A model generated the notes under the pieces. It saw only the letters and a program-made list of their open reading frames with translations. It made no database searches and was not told the origin of the DNA. A stretch of DNA of 51,262 nucleotides from a virus. A program made the position numbers and the translations under genes. Below are positions 1-44,963 of the stretch, piece by piece. Numbering within the stretch: position 1 is the first letter of the stretch; every line of letters starts with the position of its first letter. The DNA lies in IMG/VR virus record IMGVR_UViG_3300047476_000418, positions 1-51,262 of that record. One strand, written 5' to 3'.

Positions 1-141
1 CACGATCTAGCACAGATGCAATGCTGTTTTGAGGACGAATGGTTTGCTGGTACATCTAAGGTGCTACCAAAGCATGTTATCAATCTGTCAAAAGCTACAT
101 TTAAGACGCATGACGAAGGAGGCTGGAATCATGTACAATGA
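1..141 (+). CDS. C-terminal end of a hypothetical protein, cut by the window edge
   Basis: Frame 1 is open from the first base to a TGA at 139-141, giving 46 residues with no recognisable domain (contains CCFEDEW and ends GGWNHVQ). The next gene starts inside it at 131 behind a strong Shine-Dalgarno sequence that lies in this reading frame, which is the usual overlap seen in phage operons and supports this being coding. The start lies outside the window and the function is unknown. Confidence 0.6.
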   Translation, partial: HDLAQMQCCFEDEWFAGTSKVLPKHVINLSKATFKTHDEGGWNHVQ

Positions 142-328
142 ATCTGAAATGCTACGCAAACGTTGTGATGCTTTACTAACCGCATTGATTGGTAAAAACC
201 TTGTTGACAACTGGTGGAAATCACCTAACAAAGCTTTTTGTGATGATACTCCTGAAGTGATCTTTACAGTAGCACCAAGAACAGTATACAATTATTTGAT
301 GAAATATTACGATGCAGGTGGATCATGA
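131..328 (+). CDS. Small protein resembling the MbcA/ParS/Xre toxin-binding domain
   Basis: This encodes 65 residues. The start at 131 was preferred over an upstream in-frame ATG at 29 because GAAGGAGG lies just before it. The segment NWWKSPNKAFCDDTPEVIF followed by a V..YL motif matches the general look of the C-terminal domain of Xre/MbcA/ParS antitoxins (DUF2384: W-x-S/T-P-N ... TP ... L), which contacts partner toxins or DNA. That is a motif-level resemblance only, and no partner toxin is visible nearby. The stop overlaps the next start as ATGA, so the two are translationally coupled. Confidence 0.6.
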   Translation: MYNESEMLRKRCDALLTALIGKNLVDNWWKSPNKAFCDDTPEVIFTVAPRTVYNYLMKYYDAGGS

Positions 329-501
329 ACTACAAATACAAGTACAATAAAGAGTACCAGACGTTACAGCAGTTTGATGCAAACGGTGTGCTGCGATCTA
401 GCATGTCCATGCCACAATCTGATCTGAACGAGTTGGCTAGGTTGAACATTAAGGAAAATATTTTGCGAAATGTTGACTTGGAAGTGAAATCTGATGTATA
501 A
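325..501 (+). CDS. Hypothetical 58-residue protein
   Basis: The ATG at 325 overlaps the preceding TGA by ATGA, and the frame runs to a TAA at 499-501. The product begins MNYKYKYNKEYQTL and is hydrophilic, with no membrane segment or known motif. It is below the usual length cut for ORF finding but its coupling to the upstream gene makes it likely real. Ten bases after the stop a tRNA gene begins, so this is the last gene of the small operon entering from the left. Function unknown. Confidence 0.6.
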   Translation: MNYKYKYNKEYQTLQQFDANGVLRSSMSMPQSDLNELARLNIKENILRNVDLEVKSDV

Positions 502-511
502 TTGAAGTTAA

Positions 512-587
512 GCGACTGTAGCTCAGTGAATAGAGTATCCGGCTTCTACCCGGTTTGTCGGGGGTTTGAATCCCTCCAGTCGCACCA
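512..587 (+). tRNA. tRNA-Arg (anticodon TCT)
   Basis: It folds as a 76-nt cloverleaf: acceptor GCGACTG/CAGTCGC, D-stem GCTC/GAGT, anticodon loop CTTCTAC with anticodon TCT, T-loop TTTGAAT on a 5-bp stem, discriminator A and an encoded CCA. The first anticodon-stem pair is a T-T mismatch. It would read AGA, a codon common in AT-rich phage genes and rare in many Gram-negative hosts. It is closely similar to the tRNA-Met at 2777 in the acceptor, D and variable regions. Confidence 0.92.
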
Positions 588-879
588 GAAATTAGTCCCG
601 CTTATGCCTGTTACTCGTATCCCTAGAGTTAGCGGCACACTTCAAGCGAGGCGGGTGTAAGCCCCGTCATTAAAAACAGATGTACTGATGGCGTGGTACA
701 CTGCGGATTTCAAAGGCCCAAGGATTGTCGTCCGGGTGTAACAAGACACTATAATACTGGTTTAGGGACCAGAGGTTATAGTAAGAGATAAAAGTGATGG
801 TGGTGTGTCAGATTAACAAACGAGTGCTTCCCACATGCAGGAGTTGTGTTAATATCTCTTACTATAACTAAGGAGTAAT
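588..879 (+). other. Noncoding leader with competing inverted repeats
   Basis: No convincing ORF is present between the tRNA and the gene at 880. A perfect 16-bp inverted repeat, GTTATAGTAAGAGATA at 775-790 and its complement at 853-868, ends 2 bases before the AAGGAG of the next gene. The left arm can alternatively pair with CTATAATACTGG at 749-760 through a CTGGT/ACCAG hairpin, so two mutually exclusive folds are possible. Upstream, CCGCT...AGCGG and CGGG...CCCG hairpins follow the tRNA. A possible promoter (TTGTCG at 725, 19-bp spacer, TATAAT at 750) would start transcription near 762. Confidence 0.55.
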
Positions 880-1698
880 ATGAAAAACCTACTGATTGGT
901 TCTCGTGCATTGGAGTACTGGAGTCCAGATTTCAAGTGCAAACCTAATGCTGATTGGGATATTATTAGCTTGCATAAGATTGAAGATGCAACTAAACGCA
1001 TTGAGCATCATGCTTTCAATGCACTTGGTAGCTCTGATCTGCAGCGTTATGCTTCTGATAAATACATTGAGATTTCAGGTCAACGTGTGCATGTCGTTAC
1101 TCCAATTGGACTAGCGATCATCAAGCGCAGTCACTTATGGCGTGATCTAAGCTTTCAAAAGCACATTACGCACTATCACAGGCATCTTGCAAGATATCGT
1201 GCAGGGTTTACAGAAGTTGACGAACTTATCCTTGAGAATAGAACAAAGTTGACTATGGCAGCTTACCCACAAGGTCATCCTAGTTTGAAGAAATCTGTAG
1301 AAGACTTCTTTGATGACTATGTTGAGAAGAAATACAATCATGATTATTTGCACGAGCTTGTTGCATATCACGACAAACCATTGTATACTCGACTTCAACG
1401 TGATTCAAGTAGTGCATGGTGCGATAAAGATTTGTGGGATAAGCTATCAAACGATGATAAAATCAAATGCGTAGCTGAAGAAGCACAAGTCATTGCAATC
1501 GAGCGTTTTCTTGTACCAAGTAACTGGAATTACGCACCACGACATGCATACCTAAAAGCACTCGATAAAGTATGCACTACGTTATGCAGTGGTTGGTTTA
1601 GAAATTTTGCGATAGATAATTATCCTGAAATCTTCAATTTGTGTGATATAATGAAGTTTGACAACATTAGAAAGGAACTAGAACATGGCACGAACTAA
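880..1698 (+). CDS. Nucleotidyltransferase-like phage protein
   Basis: This is a 272-residue soluble protein. The start is set by AAGGAGTAAT just upstream. The N-terminus LLIGSRAL...NADWDII resembles the G-S-x(n)-D-x-D signature of nucleotidyltransferase-fold proteins: a GSR turn near residue 7 and DWD near residue 25. Only this motif supports the assignment; the rest (YHRHLARYRAGF, and a Trp/Cys-rich C-terminus) is not recognised. Phage relatives with the same N-terminus are usually annotated as hypothetical. It is preceded by a structured leader and overlaps the next gene by 14 bases. Its position between two tRNA genes leaves open an RNA-related role, which is speculation. Confidence 0.55.
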   Translation: MKNLLIGSRALEYWSPDFKCKPNADWDIISLHKIEDATKRIEHHAFNALGSSDLQRYASDKYIEISGQRVHVVTPIGLAIIKRSHLWRDLSFQKHITHYHRHLARYRAGFTEVDELILENRTKLTMAAYPQGHPSLKKSVEDFFDDYVEKKYNHDYLHELVAYHDKPLYTRLQRDSSSAWCDKDLWDKLSNDDKIKCVAEEAQVIAIERFLVPSNWNYAPRHAYLKALDKVCTTLCSGWFRNFAIDNYPEIFNLCDIMKFDNIRKELEHGTN

Positions 1699-2179
1699 AG
1701 CTGCAGTAGAACTTACAGTAGAGCAGCAGATTGCTCAGATTCAAAAAGAAGCTGCAGAGAAAATCAAGCAACTTCAAAATGCACTACCTTGGAATAAGCG
1801 TTTTCAGAATGCGTTTCAAAAGTATATCAGACACCATGAAAATGAAATTACTGAACAACTAAATGGGCATCAACCGAGTGATATTGTTCATTCAATTAAT
1901 GATGAACTTCGTGAAGTTAATCTGAGTGTTAAATATGATTCAGCTACATTTGATAACTCACTTTACAATCAAAGTGCGATCAATGACTTTGTAAGCAGTT
2001 ATGATTTAACGGAATATCCTGTGTATACTGTATTTGCCGTATTTGAAGATGGAAAAAATGTTGGTTACGTTCAGATCAATTGTCAATATTCATCGTACAA
2101 TGGTAATGAGTACAGTAACTTCTACTTTGTAAAACCAAAAGAAATTACTTGTACAGTATTTACTGCTTATAACCCTTGA
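1685..2179 (+). CDS. Hypothetical protein, first of three tandem paralogues
   Basis: This encodes 164 residues; the start overlaps the previous stop and AAAGGAA precedes it. Residues 1-55 are predicted helical and charged (QIQKEAAEKIKQLQNAL), possibly a coiled coil. The last ~50 residues (VYTVFAVFEDG...CQYSSYNGNEYS...FVKP...TCTVF) are related to the two following genes, which share the order V-x-S/F-x-F ... Y-x-S-x-x-G-x-x-Y ... P-x-x-x-T-x-T-V/I-F/Y. No catalytic residues or export signals are evident. Function unknown; the shared C-terminal module suggests tandem duplication with an added N-terminal segment here. Confidence 0.6.
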   Translation: MARTKAAVELTVEQQIAQIQKEAAEKIKQLQNALPWNKRFQNAFQKYIRHHENEITEQLNGHQPSDIVHSINDELREVNLSVKYDSATFDNSLYNQSAINDFVSSYDLTEYPVYTVFAVFEDGKNVGYVQINCQYSSYNGNEYSNFYFVKPKEITCTVFTAYNP

Positions 2180-2190
2180 AAGGAAATGAC

Positions 2191-2457
2191 ATGTTTAATG
2201 ATAAAGTTGTAGCTTTGCTTGCTGAAGCTGATAATAATGTACTCAGAGATGAAAAGATTACGTTTAAAGAAGTAGATCGCTACGGTGGTGAAGATCAAGG
2301 CTCTGATTACTGGTCTGTGTATTCATTCAGTGACGGTATGCAAGTTGTATTCATTCAGTTTCAAGGTTGGTATGCTTCTTACGAAGGTTCCACCTATGAA
2401 GAATTCTTTGAGGTAACTCCTGTAGAAAAAACTATCACTGTATTCGAAAAGAAATAA
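2191..2457 (+). CDS. Hypothetical protein, second tandem paralogue
   Basis: This encodes 88 residues. The ATG at 2191 is preferred over one at 2176 because GAAAGGAAATGAC supplies the ribosome site immediately before it. The core is RYGGEDQGSDYWSVYSFS, then QGWYASYEGSTY, then VTPVEKTITVF. It is about half identical by eye to the product of 2468-2770, with the same lengths between motifs. The aromatic and acidic composition suggests a compact beta-rich domain. No known family is recognised. It sits in an operon with its paralogues and the nucleotidyltransferase-like gene. Confidence 0.65.
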   Translation: MFNDKVVALLAEADNNVLRDEKITFKEVDRYGGEDQGSDYWSVYSFSDGMQVVFIQFQGWYASYEGSTYEEFFEVTPVEKTITVFEKK

Positions 2458-2467
2458 AGGAGCAGAC

Positions 2468-2770
2468 ATGGCACTTAAAGACACTTTAGAGAGCATTCTT
2501 GAGCAGTTATCCGAAGATGACAAAGAAAACTTCATGGATGGTTATGGACCAGAGGAACTATTCGATAACGAACTAATCACTGTAACAAATGTAGACAGTT
2601 ACGGTGGTGAAGACATGGGTTCAGACTATTGGGCTGTATATTCATTCAGTAAAGATAACGAAGAATTGTTTGTTAAATTTTACGGTTGGTACGCAAGTCA
2701 CTATGGTTCAGAGTACCGAGGTTGTAAGTTTGTTACTCCACAACAAAAAACTGTTACAATTTACGAATAA
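2468..2770 (+). CDS. Hypothetical protein, third tandem paralogue
   Basis: This encodes 100 residues, with AAAGGAGCAGAC upstream of the ATG. It contains SYGGEDMGSDYWAVYSFS, YGWYASHYGSEY and VTPQQKTVTIY, the three blocks also found in the gene at 2191. An acidic 30-residue N-terminal extension (ILEQLSEDDKENFMDGYG) is specific to this copy. The stop codon lies 6 bases before tRNA-Met, so the mRNA probably carries the tRNA and must be processed. Function unknown; three adjacent divergent copies imply selection for diversified partners or dosage. Confidence 0.65.
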   Translation: MALKDTLESILEQLSEDDKENFMDGYGPEELFDNELITVTNVDSYGGEDMGSDYWAVYSFSKDNEELFVKFYGWYASHYGSEYRGCKFVTPQQKTVTIYE

Positions 2771-2776
2771 GGACGA

Positions 2777-2852
2777 GCGACAGTAGCTCAGTGGTTAGAG
2801 CAGGGTTCTCATAAAGCCTTGGTCGGGAGTTCAATTCTCTCCTGTCGCACCA
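2777..2852 (+). tRNA. tRNA with CAT anticodon (Met, or Ile2 if modified)
   Basis: It forms a 76-nt cloverleaf: acceptor GCGACAG/CTGTCGC, D-stem GCTC/GAGC, anticodon loop CTCATAA (anticodon CAT), T-stem GGGAG/CTCTC with loop TTCAATT, discriminator A and encoded CCA. The paired first acceptor position G-C argues for an elongator rather than initiator tRNA. A lysidine-modified tRNA-Ile reading AUA cannot be excluded from sequence. The acceptor and D-arm closely match the tRNA-Arg at 512. Confidence 0.92.
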
Positions 2853-2872
2853 AAAATAAAGTCAATAAAGTA

Positions 2873-2901
2873 TTGACACAGCATTTGCAGTTTGCTATAA
2901 T
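2873..2901 (+). promoter_or_regulatory. Consensus sigma-70 promoter for the SSB operon
   Basis: A perfect TTGACA at 2873-2878 and TATAAT at 2896-2901 are separated by 17 bp. Transcription should start near 2908, giving a ~55-nt leader with a small ACTATC/GATAG hairpin before the ribosome site GAAAGGAAAT of the SSB gene. It is the strongest-looking promoter in the plus-strand arm. Confidence 0.9.
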
Positions 2902-2963
2902 TGCACTTCGGTCACTATCTCCGTTATGATAGAGTCTTTTATTAATAGTCGAAAGGAAATATT

Positions 2964-3614
2964 ATGCAAAAACTAACAGGTATGCTTCTCTATGTGTCAC
3001 TAAACAAGCCTCAAAAAGCTTACGTTAAGGCAGGAGAGCCAGCAAAACCAGATGAATGGAAAGCTTCAGTAGCTATTACAGATGAAGATGTAGTGGATGA
3101 GTACGAAGAGTTTGCCAAAAGTATTGATGCCAAAACATCCATCAAGAAGGTAAAGACCACTGAATTTGAAGGTATCTACAAAGTAGCACCTCCAGAAGAT
3201 GCAGGTAAGAACATTTGGGTCATTACTCTACGCAAGTCAACTCAGCTAGGTAAAACTGGCAAAGAAGTACCTGATTTGTACAAGCCAAAAGTCTTTGAGA
3301 AAGTCGGTAAAGCACTAGTTGATGTTACCAACAGTAAGCTACCTGCAAATGGTTCTTACGGTTCAATCAGCATTGATAAGTTTGAGCGCACCAATGGTAC
3401 AGCATCACTGTATCTAAAGAACGTTCTAGTTACTCAGATGATCGAATACGTAGCTGAATCTGGTCCAGAGTATGAACCCGGAAGCGAATTTGATGATGAA
3501 CCTAAAGCAGAAGCTCCAAAAGCTAAAGCTGCAGAACCTAAAGCAGAAGCTAAACCTAAAGCTCGTGCTAAGGTTGAAGTAGCTGCTGAAGATGATGAAG
3601 AAATCCCATTTTGA
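2964..3614 (+). CDS. Single-stranded DNA-binding protein
   Basis: This 216-residue protein probably coats ssDNA at the replication fork and recruits replication and recombination proteins. The core (1-~170) has mixed beta character with YGSISIDKFE and a final LKNVLVTQMIEY strand. A flexible Ala/Lys/Pro/Glu-rich linker (~175-207) follows, and the chain ends in the acidic tail AAEDDEEIPF, which is the diagnostic partner-binding tail of bacterial SSB and T7 gp2.5-type proteins. The ribosome site is GAAAGGAAAT. It heads the replication module, driven by a consensus promoter, consistent with early high expression. The exact subfamily (gp2.5-like or other) is not resolved. Confidence 0.85.
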   Translation: MQKLTGMLLYVSLNKPQKAYVKAGEPAKPDEWKASVAITDEDVVDEYEEFAKSIDAKTSIKKVKTTEFEGIYKVAPPEDAGKNIWVITLRKSTQLGKTGKEVPDLYKPKVFEKVGKALVDVTNSKLPANGSYGSISIDKFERTNGTASLYLKNVLVTQMIEYVAESGPEYEPGSEFDDEPKAEAPKAKAAEPKAEAKPKARAKVEVAAEDDEEIPF

Positions 3615-3628
3615 TTTGAAAGGTTAAC

Positions 3629-3838
3629 ATGACAAAACAAACTAAGGATATTATGACAATCGTAGCGTTACTTACTTTTGCTGTGTTACTGATCATCTTT
3701 GGACCTCTTGCTATTATCTGGTCACTGAACACTTTGTTCCCGATCTTAGCAATTCCGTTTGGTTTCTATCAGTGGGCAGCGGTAGTTCTATTGAACTTGA
3801 CAATTTTCAGCAAAACAGTTTTTACTAAGAAGGATTAA
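3629..3838 (+). CDS. Small membrane protein with two transmembrane segments
   Basis: This encodes 69 residues, starting 14 bases after the SSB stop behind GAAAGGTTAAC. Two hydrophobic stretches, about residues 10-33 (IVALLTFAVLLIIFGPLA) and 38-60, are separated by a short turn with a lysine-rich C-terminus, giving a predicted helical hairpin in the inner membrane. No family is recognised. Its place directly after SSB suggests early expression, perhaps acting on the host envelope or anchoring replication, but this is only inferred from position. Confidence 0.6.
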   Translation: MTKQTKDIMTIVALLTFAVLLIIFGPLAIIWSLNTLFPILAIPFGFYQWAAVVLLNLTIFSKTVFTKKD

Positions 3839-3839
3839 T

Positions 3840-4058
3840 ATGAACCAAAAAGAAGCAATCGCAAAACTAGTTCGTATTTATACTGAAGAGCAATCTCTAG
3901 CTGAAGAAGCTAAGGAAATCAAAGATGAAGCTAAAGAATCAGGTCTTGATCCAGCAATCGTTAGTGCAGTAGCAAAAGCAATTGTTAAAAATAAGGTTGA
4001 TGAACTAAAAGCTAAATCAGACGAAATTCTAAAAGCTATCGACATTAGCCGAAGCTAA
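3840..4058 (+). CDS. Small charged helical protein
   Basis: This encodes 72 residues, starting 1 base after the preceding stop. It is nearly all charged helix (EEQSLAEEAKEIKDEAKESG-LDP-AIVSAVAKAIVKNKVDELKAKSDEI). The layout of a helix, an E-A-K-E-x-G-L-D-P turn and a second helix recalls small phage or bacterial DNA-associated proteins (T4 DsbA-like, or DUF2312/GapR-like), which keep a xx-G-(F/L)-D turn between helices. This is a shape-level comparison, not a firm assignment. It ends the SSB operon just before a terminator. Confidence 0.6.
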   Translation: MNQKEAIAKLVRIYTEEQSLAEEAKEIKDEAKESGLDPAIVSAVAKAIVKNKVDELKAKSDEILKAIDISRS

Positions 4059-4065
4059 TATTTTA

Positions 4066-4094
4066 CCCCGAGGCTAACACCCTTGGGGTTTTTC
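4066..4094 (+). terminator. Rho-independent terminator after the SSB operon
   Basis: CCCCGAGG at 4066-4073 pairs with CCTTGGGG at 4081-4088 (one G-T pair) across the loop CTAACACC, followed by TTTTTC. Two related hairpins with a TTAACAG-like loop recur at 7216 and 50085. Confidence 0.85.
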
Positions 4095-4111
4095 TTTAAG
4101 GAGAAGAGCCT

Positions 4112-5095
4112 ATGAGTAAAAGACTATTGATCGTAGACGGTGACTTAGTAGCTTACAAACATGCTGCTGCTGCTGAAACCCGATCAATCATAGCAAAGCA
4201 TTTAAAATCAGGTAATGAAAAAGAGTTTAAAACCAGAACTGAATTGAAGAAGTTTCTTGAAGGTAAAAACATTGAGTTTAAACCTCAAGCTTATGAAATT
4301 ACCGATCACCAGCATCCTATGGATATTTCAATTGCAATTGGTACAGTCAATAAAAGTATCAGTGCTTTACTTGAAAATACTTGGTGTGATGATGTTGAGA
4401 TTTATATCGGTGGTGGTGAAACCTTCAGACATAAGCTACCTTTACCTTCACCGTACAAAAACAACAGAGATGACAACATTAGACCTGTGCATTTAACTGC
4501 AGTTAGAAACCATCTAAGACGCAAGTACAAAGCAAAGGTTGTTGAGAACGGTTTGGAAGTAGATGATGTGGTCACCATACGTGCTTACGAATGCCTCCAA
4601 AACGGTCAGGAAGCGGTGTTAGCAAGCGTAGATAAGGATAGCTACCAGTGTCAAGGAATTTCGCTTTATAACTGGACTGATGACGATCCTAAAGTGCATC
4701 TGATACCAACGATTGGACATTTACGTAAAGTTAAAACTACAGTTAAAGGTGATGGTTTAATGTTCTTAGCGTTACAGGTGTTATCGGGTGATTTAGCTGA
4801 TACATATAAACCTTATGAGTTATCCAAAGTAAGTTACGGTCCAGCTAAAGCAATGAAAGCCTTAGAAGGTTACACAACTGAACAGGAGATTTTACGAAAG
4901 ATTATCTCTGAGTTTAAGCGTTTGTATCCTGAGCCGTTTGAATACACGGATTGTCATGGTGTTTGGCACAGTGACGCTGACTGGTTTGATATGCTACAAA
5001 TGTACTGGAGTTGTGCATACATGAAGCGCAGTTGGGATGATGTAAGTAGTTTTATGCAGTTTGCAATGGAAAGGGGAGTAAATCCTTATGAGTGA
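4112..5095 (+). CDS. FEN-like 5'-3' exonuclease
   Basis: This 327-residue protein is a metal-dependent nuclease of the PIN/FEN superfamily (T7 gp6, T4 RNase H, PolI 5'-exonuclease group), which removes RNA primers and resects 5' ends. The N-terminus LLIVDGDLVAY supplies the first acidic ligands (D9, D11). KLPLPSPYKNNR is the basic arch region, GLEVDDVVTI the central acidic cluster, and LASVDKDSYQ the D-x-D motif before the H3TH-like region (SKVSYGPAKAMKAL). Length fits the phage family. It begins right after the terminator with AAGGAGAAGAG, probably expressed by read-through or an unseen promoter. It overlaps the next gene by 8 bases. Confidence 0.85.
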   Translation: MSKRLLIVDGDLVAYKHAAAAETRSIIAKHLKSGNEKEFKTRTELKKFLEGKNIEFKPQAYEITDHQHPMDISIAIGTVNKSISALLENTWCDDVEIYIGGGETFRHKLPLPSPYKNNRDDNIRPVHLTAVRNHLRRKYKAKVVENGLEVDDVVTIRAYECLQNGQEAVLASVDKDSYQCQGISLYNWTDDDPKVHLIPTIGHLRKVKTTVKGDGLMFLALQVLSGDLADTYKPYELSKVSYGPAKAMKALEGYTTEQEILRKIISEFKRLYPEPFEYTDCHGVWHSDADWFDMLQMYWSCAYMKRSWDDVSSFMQFAMERGVNPYE

Positions 5096-33094: not shown

Positions 33095-33637
33095 TTATCT
33101 GCATCTTTTTCCACTTAACCAAACTGTAGCAGAGGTTCGAACACCAGAAGTAACAGGTGTAACTCTGTGTTCTAACATAGAAGGAAAGGCAATAATAGAA
33201 CCTTTTTCCAGTGGTGCAACATATTCTTGATATAATTTAATCTGAAACTCACCACCTTCAAATTCGGAAGGATCATTAAGTAAACAAACAGCAGTTACCT
33301 TTCTTTCAAAAGGTTTACCAGATAATGGAAAAGTATCAATATGCCAATTGTAATGTTGATCAATAGTGTATTTAGCATACTGAAGATTTTCATGAAAACT
33401 AATATCATAATCCCATTCGTTTATTTTATTAGCCATCAATGCATGATTATAAAGAATGCTACCAAACCAGTTATCTTGTCTTGCAAATCGAACGGAAGTA
33501 TTTCTGTAAGAGTGAGAAATATTCTCGCCAGCTTCACCCATTGCTGCATCCATTGGTTCGATTAATTCAAACTCTTTTACAGCAAGATCACATACTTCAG
33601 AAGGTACTTTACCTAATAACCAGATTGGTAGATGCAT
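33095..33637 (-). CDS. 2OG-Fe(II) oxygenase, prolyl 4-hydroxylase-like
   Basis: This 180-residue protein is a double-stranded beta-helix dioxygenase. The iron ligands are H99-x-D101 in YNWHIDTF and H157 in MLEHRVTPV; R167 ten residues later would bind 2-oxoglutarate. The spacing matches prolyl 4-hydroxylase/PiuC-type enzymes, and FEGGEFQI and GSIIAFPS are typical core strands. Its ATG overlaps the stop of the collagen-like fibre gene (TAATG), so the two are made together. Hydroxylation of proline in that fibre is the obvious hypothesis; other substrates are possible. Confidence 0.85.
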   Translation of the reverse strand: MHLPIWLLGKVPSEVCDLAVKEFELIEPMDAAMGEAGENISHSYRNTSVRFARQDNWFGSILYNHALMANKINEWDYDISFHENLQYAKYTIDQHYNWHIDTFPLSGKPFERKVTAVCLLNDPSEFEGGEFQIKLYQEYVAPLEKGSIIAFPSMLEHRVTPVTSGVRTSATVWLSGKRCR

Positions 33638-35127
33638 TATTTATTCTCCATTTCTTTAAGACGATTTTCAAGTTCAATGACTTTTTCTGCTAGTTTGATA
33701 ACTGAAACCAAGGCAGCGTTACCATAAGCAAGTGATAGTGTACCATCATTTGATTCAGATACAACCTCTGGTAACAAGTTTTTCCAATCTTGAGCAGATG
33801 AACCAGCTTGTCTTTCATCACTATCTATTCTCGTATATACACCATTTTTTACACGAGCAAGTCTTTCTATGAAATCTTCAGGTAGATTTGTCCAATCCTT
33901 TTTCAAACGTTCATCAGAATATGCGGTAACGTTTCCTGCCATTGTCAAGTTACCCGACATGTCCATTTGGAAACGATTTGAACTTGCAGACCAACCACCT
34001 ATTCTAAATACGTTATCATCATCTAAACCTGCATTAATTGCATAGACACCTGCTCTATGGAACGCCATAATAGCGCCACCACTAGAAGAATATGCTTGTA
34101 ATGGAGCAGAGTTAAGACCAGATGCAGTATTTTGATTTGATCGGAATTGATTTGCAGCAGTCCAAGTATTTGTTGTATCAAGAATACTAGCACCCGATGG
34201 ACCAGTAGGACCGGTAGGGCCAGTTGGACCCGCAGGACCGGTGGGGCCAGTTGGACCGGTAGGACCAGCTACACCTTGAATACCTTGTGGACCTGTTGGA
34301 CCCGTTAATCCGGTAGGACCAGTAGCACCTTGTGGACCTGTAGGACCAGTAGCGCCTTGTGGTATTGTAAAGTTAAAAATAGCAGCACTGGATGTTCCAG
34401 AATTTGTTACACTTGCGTTTGAACCTGCAGCACCAGTTGTTGTAGTACCAACAGTGATTGATGCGGCTGCACCAGTAGGACCAGTGTTACCAGTAGCACC
34501 TTGTGGACCTGTTGGACCGGTAGGACCAGTTAATCCGGTAGGACCAGTTAATCCGGTAGGACCGGTAGCACCTTGTGGACCAGTCGGTCCTGTAGCACCT
34601 TGAGGAATTGTGAAATTAAATGTAGCAGCACTGGATGTTCCTGAATTTGTAATACTTACAGAAGTACCAGCAGCACCTGTTGTAACAGTACCTAATGTAA
34701 TTGTAGCAGCAGCACCGTTTGTACCGTTTGTACCGGCAGGGCCGGTAGGACCGGTAGGACCAGCTACACCTTGAATACCTTGTGGACCTGTCGGACCGGT
34801 CAAACCTTGAGGACCAGTAGGGCCAGTAGGACCAGTTGGACCAGTCGGTCCTGTAGCACCTTGAGGAATTGTGAAATCTAAAACAGCATTAGTTGATGTA
34901 CCAGAATTAACAACGGAAGCGTTAGAACCAGCAACACCAGTTGTTGTAGTACCGACAGCTACACTCGGTGCAGCACCTACAGCAAAAGCTTGAATACTAT
35001 TATCTGCTTTCTTAAAAAATAACTTACCATCCGTATAGTTAATTGCTAATTCGCCGTATTCCAAATCAGCAGCAACTGGTATTTTAGCAGCAACTGATGA
35101 TTTCTTAAGAATGATCTTACTAGGCAT
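33637..35127 (-). CDS. Collagen-like fibre with S74 chaperone domain
   Basis: This encodes 496 residues. Residues 1-~50 are an N-terminal attachment segment ([25 protein letters not shown]) common in phage fibres. Three Gly-X-Y runs (about 90-138, 177-219, 258-312), almost all G-P-T, G-P-Q or G-A-T, alternate with ~38-residue modules ending FNFTIPQ. The C-terminal ~110 residues hold [11 protein letters not shown]...[19 protein letters not shown], an S74 chaperone with the S-D-x-R-x-K site, and a coiled-coil end. A triple-helical fibre trimerised by the chaperone is expected. Lying in the head module it could be a capsid fibre rather than a tail fibre. Confidence 0.88.
34192..34860 (-). repeat. 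Collagen-coding tandem repeats
   Basis: Nine-base repeats of the GGNCCNACN type encode Gly-Pro-Thr triplets in three blocks separated by two near-identical ~115-bp modules. The blocks share long identical stretches, so the region is prone to recombination and length change. Proline lies in the X position of nearly all triplets. Confidence 0.85.
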
Positions 35128-37476: not shown

Positions 37477-37725
37477 TTAATAATGTCCAGATTCAACATT
37501 CTGGTTTTCGAGTTGAGTAGTTGCTACCCATTTTTGATTTTGACTAGAATAAACTAGAACTGAACCATTCATTTTATTTGAAGAATCCACATCTAAAGCA
37601 TCATCAATATTTTCAATACCTGATGGTCCGGGTGGTCCTTGTTCTGCAACAGTAATAACTGTAGAAACACCTTCGTTTTCTACCACTACTGTTTCAATAA
37701 TTGTATTTACAATAACATCAGTCAT
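37477..37725 (-). CDS. Small fibre-associated protein with a collagen-like tract
   Basis: This encodes 82 residues: a Val/Thr-rich strand region (VIVNTIIETVVVENEGVSTVITVAEQ), a short GPPGPSG collagen-like motif, then DDALDVDSSNKMNGSVLVYSSQNQKWVAT, the phage fibre motif in which a value is 'wrapped' (x-G-S-V-L-V-Y-S-x-x-x-x-K-W-V). It overlaps the preceding gene by 4 bases. It is probably a small trimerising connector for the neighbouring fibre. Its GPP triplet is the only Y-position proline seen in the cassette. Confidence 0.7.
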   Translation of the reverse strand: MTDVIVNTIIETVVVENEGVSTVITVAEQGPPGPSGIENIDDALDVDSSNKMNGSVLVYSSQNQKWVATTQLENQNVESGHY

Positions 37726-38089: not shown

Positions 38090-39490
38090 TTATAAATTGA
38101 TTTGGCTTACTCGCATTGTTGCTGAAGGTGTAGAAGGAGCAAAACTTGTTGCCAATGGAGCATTGATAATAATCGCAACATCATCTACAGCATACATTAA
38201 TTCAAAATAATCACCAGCTTGCATACTTACTGTGAAACTCCAAGATGGAACCAATTCAACACCGTTACCAACTAGAGTTACTTTAGAAGTACTTCTTGGA
38301 ATATCTACTCCATTTTTTCTAGCCCAAAGATACATGTTCTTTTGAGATGAATTTGAAGAAGTCAACTGTATTCTGAAATCAAACGCATATAAACCCGCAT
38401 AATCCGTAGAGATTTGACCACCATTGATTATTCTTACACCACTTGAGATTTCTGTGTTTTCAAAGTGAACAGGATGAGGTGTATTTATAGTTGGCGCTAT
38501 CTGAGTAACAGAACTTGAGAAAGTACCATAAAACAAACGAGGGAAAATCGTAGGTCTAACTAGAATCTTACCTTCAGTTGTATGTGCTTTTAAAACAGCA
38601 GCTACTGAGATTACTAAGTTTGGTGCAGTAGGTTGTACTTTGGTAAATTTACCAGCTTGGGTAGGATGTGCATACAGCAAGTCACCAATTTGCCATGTCT
38701 CTCCTACATCGGAGCCTGTGGTATTGATATTGCGTACTTTACCAAGTACTGTAGCTCTACCACGTTGACCCGGAATTAGTGCATTAGTTAAAACACCGAT
38801 AATGTAAAGAGGTGGGGTACTTCCATTTGCAATAAGAGGTGATGCTTCTGGAATTTCATCTAATGAAACACCTGAGAAACGAACTACTGTTCCATTCGGC
38901 ATAGTAGCGTTTGTCTTATTAATAACTTCAATATAGCTTTCAAGCCCTACTTGTAGAACAGTACCGTCATTTTGTACAATATCTAAGCAATCTTCAAATT
39001 CATTCCAAGTCATCATACCGGGAAGATAATCTTCAGCGGTATAATTGGCAGTCGTATTCATCTGAACATGATCAAACACCGGATTGACTGAAACGCCAAT
39101 TCTCTGATCAATGTGTTGTTCTACAGCTTTACCTTTTGTAACAACTCGTCTACCATCTGACATTAAGATTACAAGGTGACCTTCTGCATCGAATTCTGCA
39201 GCTTTTACGGTAGGTGCAGCTACGATGATATCTTCAGCTTTAGAAACCACCTCGAAAGGATTTGTGTAACTTCTGAGTGATTCTACGTGTGATGGTAATT
39301 TTGGTGCTTTTACTTTTGCTGGTTGATTTTTTCGTTCTTCTATTTTTACAGCGTTAGTTCCAGCGAAAATTGATTCTTCTTTTGAGAAACCTTTAGCGAG
39401 AGAAGCATTGGCTACTTTTGCGAATAATTCCCTTAATTTTAAAGATTTACCTTGAATGGCAGTTGGGGTATTATCTGCAGACCATTGCAT
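38090..39490 (-). CDS. Structural protein with ChaB-like N-terminus and C1q/TNF-like C-terminus
   Basis: This encodes 466 residues. Residues 1-~50 (WSADNTPTAIQGKSLKLRELFAKVANASL) resemble the product of the neighbouring 39583 gene and ChaB-like segments. Residues ~130-320 are beta-rich (GVSVNPVFDHVQMNT...GMMTWNEFEDCLDI). The last ~130 residues (GVRIINGGQISTDYAGLYAFDFRIQL, quoted in part; AGDYFELMYAVDD) have the A-G-x-Y-x-F and G-D-x-x-E pattern of C1q/TNF-like heads found in phage receptor or head-fibre proteins. It begins behind AAAGGAGAGAAT under its own promoter. Confidence 0.7.
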   Translation of the reverse strand: MQWSADNTPTAIQGKSLKLRELFAKVANASLAKGFSKEESIFAGTNAVKIEERKNQPAKVKAPKLPSHVESLRSYTNPFEVVSKAEDIIVAAPTVKAAEFDAEGHLVILMSDGRRVVTKGKAVEQHIDQRIGVSVNPVFDHVQMNTTANYTAEDYLPGMMTWNEFEDCLDIVQNDGTVLQVGLESYIEVINKTNATMPNGTVVRFSGVSLDEIPEASPLIANGSTPPLYIIGVLTNALIPGQRGRATVLGKVRNINTTGSDVGETWQIGDLLYAHPTQAGKFTKVQPTAPNLVISVAAVLKAHTTEGKILVRPTIFPRLFYGTFSSSVTQIAPTINTPHPVHFENTEISSGVRIINGGQISTDYAGLYAFDFRIQLTSSNSSQKNMYLWARKNGVDIPRSTSKVTLVGNGVELVPSWSFTVSMQAGDYFELMYAVDDVAIIINAPLATSFAPSTPSATMRVSQINL

Positions 39491-39582: not shown

Positions 39583-39807
39583 TTACTTTAAATATTTTGC
39601 TTTGATAATATCTTCTACTGACTTTTTAACTTTATCTTTTTTATTAGCTTCTTCTGCATTTTTCATTGCAGCAAGCGAAGCAATACGAGCTTTCTCTTCA
39701 GAACCTGTATCTTTTAAAGTTTGGTTAAAAACTCTAATGGCTACTTCTTGAACTGATTTAGATTTCTTACTTGCCCATTGTGGGACATTATCTGCTGAGT
39801 ATGGCAT
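39583..39807 (-). CDS. Small ChaB-like protein
   Basis: This encodes 74 residues: MPYSADNVPQWASKKSKSVQEVAIRVFNQTL then a charged helical tail (KDKVKKSVEDIIKAKYLK). The opening matches the small ChaB-like/phage proteins with the motif P-Y-x-x-D-N/L-P-x-x-V/W, and is shared with the N-terminus of the next structural protein. AGGAAAAGAA is upstream. Its start lies inside the GIY-YIG gene (20-base overlap), implying that the endonuclease gene was inserted ahead of it. Role unknown, possibly regulating or co-assembling with the fibre protein. Confidence 0.68.
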   Translation of the reverse strand: MPYSADNVPQWASKKSKSVQEVAIRVFNQTLKDTGSEEKARIASLAAMKNAEEANKKDKVKKSVEDIIKAKYLK

Positions 39808-40150
39808 TTCTTTTCCTATGCATCATTTGTATAACTTGAGGTGATAATCTACCACCTTCTGCTGTATTCCAACCCATATATTCAAATGGACGGAAAATCT
39901 TTTCTAATTCGTATGCTTGCTTAACATCGCATACACAAAGTCTAGTTTTAACTATATTTTCAACACCGTATTCAGCGAAAGCTAAATGCAGCGGATTATA
40001 CTGATTATACGAGTTATTAAATCTACTGCAGTGCTCTTTGAATCTTATGTCAATTAAACGAGTAGTAACACCAACGTATCCTTGAGTGAATACGTCAGTG
40101 TGTTCTTTAAGATGCAACCAGTACAGAATCGCAGTCTTATTATGCTGCAT
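39788..40150 (-). CDS. GIY-YIG-family homing endonuclease
   Basis: This encodes 120 residues. ILYWLHLKEHTDVFTQGYVGVT is a GIY-YIG variant (Y-W-L ... G-Y-V-G-V-T), followed by RFKEHC with the expected Arg, and EYGVENIVKTRL and ELEKIFRPFEYMGWNTAEGG with the catalytic Glu candidate and terminal N-x-x-x-G-G motif. The start overlaps the portal stop by 11 bases and the end overlaps the next gene by 20, with no promoter of its own. A free-standing mobile gene inserted after portal, now translationally embedded. Confidence 0.78.
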   Translation of the reverse strand: MQHNKTAILYWLHLKEHTDVFTQGYVGVTTRLIDIRFKEHCSRFNNSYNQYNPLHLAFAEYGVENIVKTRLCVCDVKQAYELEKIFRPFEYMGWNTAEGGRLSPQVIQMMHRKRNAILSR

Positions 40151-41615
40151 TCTCTAGGTTACCAGAGCTTGTATCATTACCGGAAGGTGACGTTGCAGTA
40201 CCTTCACCAGCCGTTTTAAAACCATCACCACTACGAGAGGTCATCGCTGGCATTTGATCTTGATTTGGCTCTTCATCATCAGGTAAAGCATCTACACCGA
40301 TTGACTCACGAACTCTATTGAGTACCGCACGATCAACTTCAATGACAGATGTACTAGCAAAACGCTGAACAGCTTTAGAGAATGATTCTAGGTCTTCAGA
40401 TTCTAGGTTATCGAAATCGATTTTACCCATTCTGGAAGTATCCCAACCGTTTAACTCATAAGTTTGCTTGATAAGGTCATCATTGATAGTATCACGAATC
40501 TTTCTGAGCATTGCTTCAGCAGCAGTAGCAGATAGAGAGTTTTTAACTTGACCTAGAGCGTTAGAACCACCACCGGATTGACCTAGCACTAGAATATCAG
40601 CAAACAAGGATGTTAAGATTAGATTTTTATAGTATTCTTTAATCTTAGATGTATCCATTGCTTTGCTACCGTTTAGTGATAGCAACTCTAGCTCAAACAA
40701 AGGTTGTTTTGTATCAGGATCGTGTGCTTGTGGTAGAATCAAGGCAGATTGCTGATTCAGTTGCAAGTTACGCATTACGTTTTCGTAATAAGCACGAATA
40801 GCCTTTTGATCAGGTGAAGCTTCAGAAGATAGATACTGAGGTGGGAGCTTTAGTACTGGTAGACCAGCTAAATCTTTAGCTACACCGTTTGCTTCAATCT
40901 CTTCGATTACACTTAGGAATCTCCACGCAAGGTATGCATCACGAAGCATTGATTTACCGAATGGGTCACCTTTGTGTTTACCTGCACGAAACAGCATAAT
41001 CTTACTACGAGGTAGAATTACTTCGTTATTGGTACGACTTGAATAACGGTTATAAACATCAGAAATAGATGAAAGGTTTTGTTTTACACCTTTAACTTCA
41101 TTACCGTCTTCACTAAAGATAAATTTTTCAATTGTCTCTTGATTACGAATTGGGAGCTTTTTCCAACCAATAAGACCATCATCATACTTGGAACCATTGG
41201 ATTTTAAACGTCTGCGGTAAACTTTTTCATGCACAGAAAAACCATACATATTAGCAGATAGAGCTTCTGAAATAAACTCAGACCAAGTTTGATCTGTAAG
41301 GTCTTGCATCATTTCATTAATGATTTGAGCTTGCCTTAATTCTTCAGGAGAAGCATCTTTAATCGGTTTAAAACTCCAATCAACTTTACCAATTAGATTT
41401 TCATACAATGTCAAAGCAGAGTTAATTGTGCTATGATAAGACATTTGCTTATAGGTATTTACACTATTTGGAAAGTTTAATTCTTTCTTCAATTCATCGT
41501 TAGATACACCATTGAATACATTTAAACCGAGGTATCCTGATTCACTTAATTTGAAGCGATCTGGCGTATCATCCACTGCTTTTTGTACTGAGTTATTTTG
41601 TGATTTACGTGCCAT
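40140..41615 (-). CDS. Portal protein
   Basis: This encodes 491 residues from ATG 41615 (AAAGGAGCCGTTG upstream; the preceding TTG is too close to the ribosome site). TYKQMSYHSTINSALTLYENLIGKVDW is the typical opening (quoted in part); TWSEFISEALSANMYGFSVHEKVY and KIMLFRAGKHKGDPFGKSMLRDAYLAWRF (in part) match DUF935-like and related portals; the acidic, serine-rich C-terminus is disordered. It forms the dodecameric DNA channel and anchors the terminase. It follows the terminase gene directly. Confidence 0.88.
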   Translation of the reverse strand: MARKSQNNSVQKAVDDTPDRFKLSESGYLGLNVFNGVSNDELKKELNFPNSVNTYKQMSYHSTINSALTLYENLIGKVDWSFKPIKDASPEELRQAQIINEMMQDLTDQTWSEFISEALSANMYGFSVHEKVYRRRLKSNGSKYDDGLIGWKKLPIRNQETIEKFIFSEDGNEVKGVKQNLSSISDVYNRYSSRTNNEVILPRSKIMLFRAGKHKGDPFGKSMLRDAYLAWRFLSVIEEIEANGVAKDLAGLPVLKLPPQYLSSEASPDQKAIRAYYENVMRNLQLNQQSALILPQAHDPDTKQPLFELELLSLNGSKAMDTSKIKEYYKNLILTSLFADILVLGQSGGGSNALGQVKNSLSATAAEAMLRKIRDTINDDLIKQTYELNGWDTSRMGKIDFDNLESEDLESFSKAVQRFASTSVIEVDRAVLNRVRESIGVDALPDDEEPNQDQMPAMTSRSGDGFKTAGEGTATSPSGNDTSSGNLENAA

Positions 41616-41630
41616 CAACGGCTCCTTTGA

Positions 41631-43955: not shown

Positions 43956-44963
43956 TTAAGAAACAGCACCATATGTTGTACCTGATCCATTTCGCACAGC
44001 GGAATAACCATTTAGATTTATAGCTTTACCACCAGCACCACCAGCAAAAGAGCCGAGATTAGAGTTCCCTCTTCCACCTGCTGCACCCCATCCGCCGCCT
44101 CCGCCGCCGCCAGCGGCTTGACCCGCATATGCACCATTCGCACCTGCACTTCCAGCACCTCCACCAGCACCACCAGCAGCCTGCTTTTGTACGTTTACAG
44201 GACCGGCACCGGCACATCCTCCACCGCCACCAGCACCGCCACCGCCACCAGTTCTATAGAAACCACCGGGTACTGAAGGTGGAAGAGAACCATTACTACC
44301 ACCTCCACCTGTTCCCGGAAAAATTCGACCTCCACCACCACCACCATATGTTGAACTATTAGCTACCGTGTTTGCTGTACCAGCACCTGCTGAACCAATT
44401 GCGCCTCCTGCTAATAAGGCAGGGAAACTACCTCTACCACCACCAGCACCACCGCCACCAACGCTGCCGCCAGCACCACCGCCGCCGCCAATATATGAAT
44501 TATTTGTAATAGTACAATTGGAGTTAAGAGAAATTGCTGGACCACCTGCTGAACCCGCAACTTCAACAGAAGTAGAAGAAGCATTGCCACCTCTACCCAT
44601 AATAAAACCATTATTAACAATTGTCAAACCACCGGGGAAAGAACCTGTTGTTAAACCAGCAACTGCTGTACTATCAGACCAAATATAAACGCCAGATGCA
44701 ATTGTAATTGTTGCATTGGATGAACCGTTCCAACCGTTGCTTGTAGCCCAAGTAGCTAGATTTAGTTGCTGTTGGTTTGTAGTAATAGTTGCAGCAAAAG
44801 CATTAGCTTTACCATAACCTTGTGACATTGAAATAGCACCGCTTGCTACTCCGAATAAATTACGTACTGCTGTTTCACCTAAACTAATGTTAGCTGTAGA
44901 TGATCTACCGAGTTCAGTATTTACTTGAGATAATGAAATCGTTCCACTCGATGGTAATGGCAT
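43956..44963 (-). CDS. Glycine-rich adhesin-like fibre tip protein
   Basis: This encodes 335 residues. The N-terminus MPLPSSGTISLSQVNTELG...ISLGETAVRNLFG is a common phage tail-fibre/tail-protein attachment motif. Residues ~185-310 are extremely glycine-rich (GGGGGAGG, GGGGGRIFPGTGGGG and similar runs) with short variable inserts. This recalls gp38 adhesins of T2-like phages, whose poly-glycine II helices present receptor-binding loops. It probably recognises the host surface. AAGGAAAATAAT precedes the start. High GC of the glycine codons makes a local composition peak. Confidence 0.8.
   Translation of the reverse strand: MPLPSSGTISLSQVNTELGRSSTANISLGETAVRNLFGVASGAISMSQGYGKANAFAATITTNQQQLNLATWATSNGWNGSSNATITIASGVYIWSDSTAVAGLTTGSFPGGLTIVNNGFIMGRGGNASSTSVEVAGSAGGPAISLNSNCTITNNSYIGGGGGAGGSVGGGGAGGGRGSFPALLAGGAIGSAGAGTANTVANSSTYGGGGGGRIFPGTGGGGSNGSLPPSVPGGFYRTGGGGGAGGGGGCAGAGPVNVQKQAAGGAGGGAGSAGANGAYAGQAAGGGGGGGWGAAGGRGNSNLGSFAGGAGGKAINLNGYSAVRNGSGTTYGAVS

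Follow-up and report, generated by a model that had tools for sequence, protein, structure and literature searches.

Among the closest described counterparts of the gene pair considered here are the collagen prolyl hydroxylase (vCPH) of Paramecium bursaria Chlorella virus 1 (PBCV-1; structure 5c5t), a single-domain viral enzyme, and the prolyl 4-hydroxylase of Bacillus anthracis, which hydroxylates proline at X as well as at Y of the Gly-X-Y triplets of (PPG)n, with Y favoured (PMC8968730). The first belongs to a chlorella virus and the second to a bacterium, neither to a phage, and for the bacterial enzyme the available portions of that report mention no dedicated fibre partner in the same operon. 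As far as the accessible parts of the sources go, one published view is that neither bacteria nor viruses have the prolyl hydroxylases that hydroxylating collagen at Y would require (PMC3368898); authors surveying viruses of the Baltic Sea state that the viral use of prolyl 4-hydroxylase ‘remains cryptic’ and that collagen can form part of tail fibres (PMC9301287); an annotation paper points to a likeness between human EGLN3 and many of the oxygenases of phages (PMC12774648); and a cyanophage review links such oxygenase genes to DNA repair instead (PMC2984593). In the open-access literature, to the extent that its text was available, we found no description of a collagen fibre and an oxygenase forming a pair in a phage. 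Such a pair lies in IMG/VR virus record IMGVR_UViG_3300047476_000418, a freshwater phage sequence whose whole length of 51,262 bases is called the window here: a 496-residue collagen-like fibre (33637..35127, minus strand) followed by a 180-residue 2-oxoglutarate- and Fe(II)-dependent (2OG-Fe(II)) oxygenase (33095..33637, minus strand). We consider it probable, from the sequences of this pair and its relatives, that the oxygenase is a dedicated phage collagen hydroxylase that acts on runs of Gly-Pro-Thr (GPT), is encoded in the same transcript cassette as its fibre, and most likely modifies the X-position proline, stabilising the helix.

The fibre protein carries three collagen blocks of 17, 15 and 19 triplets, counted with X and Y other than Gly (residues 90-140, 34708..34860; residues 177-221, 34465..34599; residues 258-314, 34186..34356; these and all following features of the pair are on the minus strand), whereas shuffling the residues of this protein 1000 times gave no run longer than 5. 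Pfam Collagen (PF01391) matches in three stretches at 81.6 bits (cut-off 27.2), and Peptidase_S74 matches at 29.4 bits (cut-off 22) over a C-terminal domain of the intramolecular chaperone type (residues 404-496, 33640..33918), while the N-terminal domain (residues 1-48, 34984..35127) is common to relatives with other distal parts. On the coding strand the junction of the two genes reads ...GAAATGGAGAATAAATAATGCAT..., in which the fibre stop TAA and the oxygenase start ATG have one base in common (TAATG, 33635..33639); a GGAG within the end of the fibre gene (33646..33649), 8 nt 5′ of the ATG, may be the ribosome-binding site of the oxygenase. A three-block fibre with an S74 chaperone, the TAATG overlap and an oxygenase with an intact HxD...H...R motif had all been described in an earlier note on this DNA, and all are borne out, the last by the profile score and invariant residues given below. 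The same note had placed nearly all proline at X, which can be strengthened to all proline inside the runs: across the 51 triplets, Pro stands at X 31 times and at Y never, and Thr is the commonest residue at Y (33). With none in 51 triplets, Y-position Pro is rejected as the target in the window phage, and it is weakened as the target in the enzyme’s clade, where the mean proportion of Pro is 0.10 at Y and 0.67 at X.

The oxygenase matches PF13640 at E 1.6e-16 (61.5 bits, cut-off 27), as do all 19 aligned members at E 0.001, and H99, D101, H157 and R167 are invariant in the alignment of these 19 sequences. From what is known of the family, we take the two histidines and the aspartate to be Fe ligands and R167 to bind 2-oxoglutarate, and the profile together with the HxD...H/basic ligand pattern predicts that the protein belongs to the 2OG-Fe(II) oxygenase superfamily PF13640. 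The ratio of nonsynonymous to synonymous substitution rates (dN/dS) is 0.14 against the enzyme of locus L001 and 0.09 against that of L087 (dS 1.46 for L087, near saturation), low values that indicate purifying selection on the gene. The protein also matches phrog_61 (E 6.1e-35), a PHROG that includes oxygenases of cyanophages and pelagiphages and is categorized in PHROGs as moron/auxiliary metabolic. In a collection of 50,697 phage records, 364 have matches to the oxygenase, the named phages being mostly cyanophages; all matches are below 60% identity, with the best at about 36% among the matches listed. Some public records (NC_070962.1, NC_021530.1, MW574966.1) annotate oxygenases of this family as ‘ferrochelatase’ or ‘DNA endonuclease V’, and PHROGs with these names match the window’s enzyme; the names were probably mis-transferred.

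In the enzyme’s own clade, defined as at least 51% identity (best segment) to the window’s enzyme, the co-occurrence of oxygenase and collagen, which the earlier note had proposed to survey, is nearly constant. Two enzyme-based scans, of which one kept the best 80 of its 106 relatives and the other the best 80 of 532, yielded 88 metagenomic loci of the clade, in which a collagen open reading frame (ORF) was scored strictly, as at least six consecutive triplets with neither X nor Y being Gly. A same-strand collagen ORF was present in 84 of the 88 loci and in all 66 with at least 3 kb of upstream sequence; the four misses have short upstream sequence (L003, 439; L103, 120; L111, 1553; L148, 1801 bases), and opposite-strand collagen was seen in two of the 88. 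Spacing was often tight: leaving out the fragment L029, 24 of 87 loci have a 4-base (ATGA) overlap and four a 1-base overlap, seven are spaced within 60 bases, 32 at 61-600 bases and 10 further apart, with collagen downstream in six and absent in four. In a non-redundant tree of 120 enzymes the clade takes up 69 rows, 65 of them with collagen. Outside the 88, a relative with 68% identity (L426) on a betaproteobacterial metagenome-assembled genome contig also follows a collagen ORF, one with (GPT)3; it is the clade member among two relatives found in a scan of bacterial and archaeal genomes, and the evidence for a prophage there is thin. Oxygenases of this clade are thus tied to collagen ORFs far beyond chance, with the proviso for all p-values given here that the loci are nearly all metagenomic and interrelated and the samples were gathered differently, so that p-values overstate independence.

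A second clade shows a similar association. Among collagen loci found through a Gly-Pro-Thr DNA pattern, 9 of 77 have oxygenases 31-36% identical to the reference enzymes. Four of these enzymes were aligned and the alignment used as the query of a further scan, in which the best 80 of 559 relatives were kept; collagen was present in 61 of these 80 loci and in 44 of the 49 with 3 kb upstream. The second-clade rows in the tree were found via collagen, so that their labels prove nothing there, and the alignment scan is the fairer test.

The fibres that accompany the enzyme are varied in their other parts. Among 59 complete adjacent fibres there are ends with and without S74, and several unlike N-termini occur. 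A figure of 15 unrelated N-termini was dropped, as it came from a crude ungapped 45% cut in which an offset between start codons made one group count as two; when the first 80 residues were linked loosely by BLAST there were 5 groups, perhaps over-joined by repeats.

The collagen itself differs according to whether the enzyme is present. A set of 63 non-redundant partner collagens was set against 45 collagens whose loci are without an oxygenase although the 3′ flank reaches 1.5 kb or more: the proportion of Pro at X is 0.674 in partners vs 0.409 (p 6.5e-11), of Pro at Y 0.099 vs 0.017, of Thr at Y 0.658 vs 0.507 (p 2.5e-4), and of charged residues 0.005 vs 0.051. After regression on GC content and on Pro outside the collagen, the effect on Pro at X is 0.254 (t 7.2), and GC content and general Pro use were rejected as causes of the enrichment. 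Of the partner sets, 59 of 63 in the own clade and 39 of 44 in the second contain (GPT)3, compared with 2 of 13 among fibre-anchored collagen sets without oxygenase, a control that takes in contigs ending right after the fibre. The control loci with a run of three or more GPT are L151, which ends at the fibre end and is a near-copy of the enzyme-bearing L001, and L213 and L221, where small proteins carry the run. The locus L132 is telling, in that its long fibre consists mostly of Gly-Tyr-Ser-type repeats and has its GPT-rich runs near the end, adjoining the enzyme gene. Considering only fibres with the window’s N-terminal domain, runs of three or more GPT are found in 15 of the 16 that are followed within 3 kb by an oxygenase, whatever its clade, and in none of the 8 that are not (Fisher 1.2e-5); the sampling of the two groups is unlike, the first coming mostly from enzyme scans and the second from fibre and pattern scans.

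A sample of 104 collagens drawn independently of the enzyme agrees: an oxygenase lies within 3 kb downstream in 8 of the 28 with three or more GPT in succession and in 2 of the 76 with fewer (Fisher 3.6e-4). This test is supportive, not blind, as one of the three DNA patterns used for sampling is itself a GPT pattern, and the threshold of three was carried over from the earlier (GPT)3 count. In an S74-anchored control, an oxygenase stands within 3 kb downstream of 12 of 16 collagen fibres vs 2 of 64 other fibres, a comparison biased by a query built from oxygenase-bearing fibres; for one collagen fibre counted there as enzyme-less (L302), PF13640 does match at a more distant point of the contig. 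In an N-terminus-anchored control, 14 of 16 collagen fibres are without the oxygenase, as are 8 of the 10 whose downstream sequence extends to 1.5 kb; not every collagen fibre, then, is accompanied by the enzyme. As a separate observation, the fibres L132:4423-7998 and L302:6075-8285 contain very long repeats with an aromatic or bulky residue at X and Ser at Y (Gly-Tyr-Ser, Gly-Phe-Ser, Gly-Ile-Ser), a composition unusual for collagen-like proteins.

Several observations weigh against a dedicated collagen prolyl hydroxylase, beginning with the kinship of the enzyme. By sequence, the solved structures closest to it are of the PKHD type (3dkq, E 2.6e-11) and not collagen prolyl hydroxylases, the PBCV-1 prolyl hydroxylase giving a weak profile match (E 0.0047). 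The PKHD-type PiuC/YbiX enzymes (3dkq, 9ghl) have the same core and Arg motif in alignment, but the oxygenase scores far under the cut-offs of the PKHD equivalogs NF003972-NF003975 (34-57 bits vs 143-399), and we know of no collagen partner for PiuC/YbiX. An AlphaFold2 model built from the 19 sequences (mean predicted local distance difference test score, pLDDT, 89.2) matches solved superfamily members. Its top Foldseek match is the Pseudomonas putida prolyl hydroxylase bound to EF-Tu, and VIA-align, run on the 1000 chains ranked highest by Foldseek, places the PBCV-1 collagen hydroxylase first (Z 17.9, root-mean-square deviation 2.7, 160 residues aligned, 19% identity), in a near tie with human PHD2 (Z 17.0) and the PKHD-type 3dkq (Z 16.5); the predicted fold therefore does not separate PKHD-type from prolyl hydroxylases (listed Z 15-18). 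Collagen prolyl 4-hydroxylases and vCPH are defined by a Lys that lies 10 residues after the distal His and binds 2-oxoglutarate, and Lys is presumably the 2-oxoglutarate ligand of vCPH itself; in our enzymes this position, 10 residues past His157, is Arg167 in 19 of 19 sequences. With Arg in place of Lys as the ligand, and with a fold match so close to a tie, we make no claim of membership in the collagen prolyl 4-hydroxylase family. Animal enzymes of that family hydroxylate Pro at Y of Gly-X-Pro, a position at which the window’s collagen runs have no Pro.

The remaining points on this side concern distribution. None of 56 loci with distant homologues (33-49% identity), including 44 with 3 kb upstream, has strict collagen. 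The earlier note had held that relatives regularly carrying the oxygenase with no collagen-like protein would speak against its proposal: such relatives exist outside the clade, and as a minority in the second clade, where 5 of the 49 loci with 3 kb upstream are without strict collagen. Several exceptions in the second clade (L500, L501, L504, L505) have neighbours that do not look like fibre genes, and in L498 a protein containing 7 GPT narrowly fails the strict rule. Among the 104 collagens, 20 of the 28 that are GPT-rich have no enzyme downstream; conversely, some collagens near an oxygenase fit the motif poorly, with two isolated GPT and other genes between in L140/L143, no Pro at X and no GPT run in L479 and L609, and GPT only singly in L611. 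As to location, head genes surround the pair, with portal (40140-41618) and terminase on one side and head protease, decoration and capsid genes on the other, so that the fibre may be a component of the head as well as of the tail.

The distant homologues have neighbours of their own. Under a loose rule (runs of at least five Gly-X-Y, at least eight triplets in total) many of them seemed collagen-linked, and the proteins proved to be glycine-rich, for which reason the strict rule was adopted. A same-strand glycine-rich protein, rather than collagen, occurs in 43 of the 56 loci, 0.8-5.4 kb upstream in 42 of these; of three such proteins, one resembles Gp38 (E 1.5e-4, under the cut-off), one Gly_rich_2, and one has no match. 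Collagen and adhesins of this kind may both consist of polyproline II/polyglycine II helices, and a wider family of hydroxylases acting on polyproline II fibres is possible. Examples of the glycine-rich proteins are L049:6020-6994, L026:5149-6084 and L056:5074-5994. The window too encodes a glycine-rich, adhesin-like protein (43956-44963, minus strand; about 29% Gly), assigned to phrog_10745, a PHROG common to the L049 and L056 proteins; its first 120 residues had no match in the ten sister-phage pieces checked.

These neighbours bear on the likeliest alternative, in which the oxygenase acts elsewhere, on the 43956-44963 adhesin or another virion protein, on host EF-Tu or on nucleic acid, and travels in a mobile fibre cassette. 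Beyond the glycine-rich proteins, two of three of which resemble Gp38 or Gly_rich_2, the EF-Tu-bound Foldseek match fits such a role, and neighbouring genes can stay together by linkage alone. Hitchhiking, however, predicts a link to fibre type and not to the length of GPT runs, which differs with the enzyme among fibres sharing one N-terminal domain, and non-collagen S74 fibres rarely have the oxygenase within 3 kb downstream; we regard this alternative as unlikely. Slightly less likely still is the hydroxylation of Thr at Y of G-P-T, which might give a glycosyltransferase of host or phage a point of attachment. In partners, Y is most often occupied by Thr, and among the 104 collagens the link goes with both residues, an oxygenase being present in 4 of 11 where Pro at X and Thr at Y are both high, in 0 of 15 with Pro at X and little Thr at Y, and in 0 of 17 with Thr at Y and little Pro at X; against this, the shift of Pro at X in partner collagens is stronger than that of Thr at Y, and the predicted fold groups with prolyl hydroxylases. 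That two genes common in aquatic phages lie together by coincidence is very improbable: the oxygenase is indeed widespread among phage records and GPT-collagen pattern matches number at least those listed, but collagen is found in 66 of 66 clade loci and 0 of 44 distant loci with equal upstream cover, is rare on the opposite strand, and is retained in the clade rows of the non-redundant tree.

The earlier note had left a choice between X-position specificity and action elsewhere. The clade link, together with the tracking of GPT runs, answers it in favour of the collagen tract itself, the site being Pro at X, or alternatively Thr at Y. The self-contained hydroxylated-collagen fibre system that the note inferred is partly supported, through the association of the enzyme with collagen and GPT; a hydroxylation of the fibre may change its stability or its recognition of receptors.

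From the computed observations, namely the gene pair, the intact active-site residues under purifying selection, the near-constant clade link and the GPT-run link, we infer the following course for a dedicated collagen hydroxylase. The adjacent, tightly spaced, same-strand genes would be read as one transcript; the enzyme, if active, would take as its substrate the GPT runs of nascent or unwound chains, before or during the winding of three chains; Pro at X would be the residue hydroxylated, giving Gly-Hyp-Thr (Hyp, hydroxyproline); and the fibre, which has no charged residues in its collagen runs, would benefit by gaining stability or stiffness. Gly-Hyp-Thr forms a better and more stable helix than Gly-Pro-Thr, as in the cuticle collagen of vent worms. 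The chemistry would resemble that of the viral and bacterial collagen hydroxylases. As described in the accessible parts of two sources, modifications of animal collagen precede trimer formation (PMC8968730), and Hyp at X is stabilizing when Y is also Hyp (PMC12862961). A more specific version of the proposal, which we offer tentatively and as somewhat less probable than its opposite, is that this is a phage-evolved hydroxylated collagen, in which an X-Pro-specific hydroxylase makes Gly-Hyp-Thr helices, the second clade does likewise, and GPT run length predicts the enzyme.

Relatives of the window phage illustrate the setting of the fibre gene. The capsid protein of Limnohabitans phage DC31 is 97.9% identical to the window’s and that of Curvibacter phage P26059A 66.8%, and no Limnohabitans or Curvibacter phage is among the 364 phage records matching the oxygenase. 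In DC31 the same slot keeps the N-terminal part of the fibre (47% over 104 aa), followed by a different, non-collagen fibre and no oxygenase. In the sister contigs L152/L153 the slot holds a collagen fibre of 53 triplets with a head protease gene (named by its likeness to the window’s protein) directly after it; a PF13640 profile search of the whole 83-kb contig of L153 gave no match, and the L152 collagen never has two GPT in succession. DC31 and L152/L153 thus have the same gene slot and fibre N-terminal domain as the window, and L152/L153 also a collagen fibre, but unlike the window they are without the oxygenase. By these comparisons the fibre slot is a swap site.

Some smaller observations were made in the same genomes. 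In the DC31 record (L085), the fibre is a 118-residue stub (4295-4651) followed by a short gene and then a giant repeat fibre (1-4120), whose minus-strand frame reaches the linear start of the record and is unannotated there. The window encodes, on the same strand as the pair, an 82-residue protein with a short GPPGPSG stretch (37477-37725, minus strand), whose DC31 counterpart is 67.8% identical. A 74-aa protein (39583-39807, minus strand) matches the start of the DC31 counterpart of a 466-aa protein (38090-39490, minus strand) at 36% over 61 aa, suggesting a duplicated domain that was fused to the larger protein.

With an oxygenase clade tied to one collagen motif, orphan phage enzymes gain a concrete candidate substrate. 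If our reading is true, bacterial collagens could be produced in hydroxylated form with this enzyme as a small tool, and the post-translational hydroxylation of collagen would occur in phages also, with X-position rather than Y-position chemistry.

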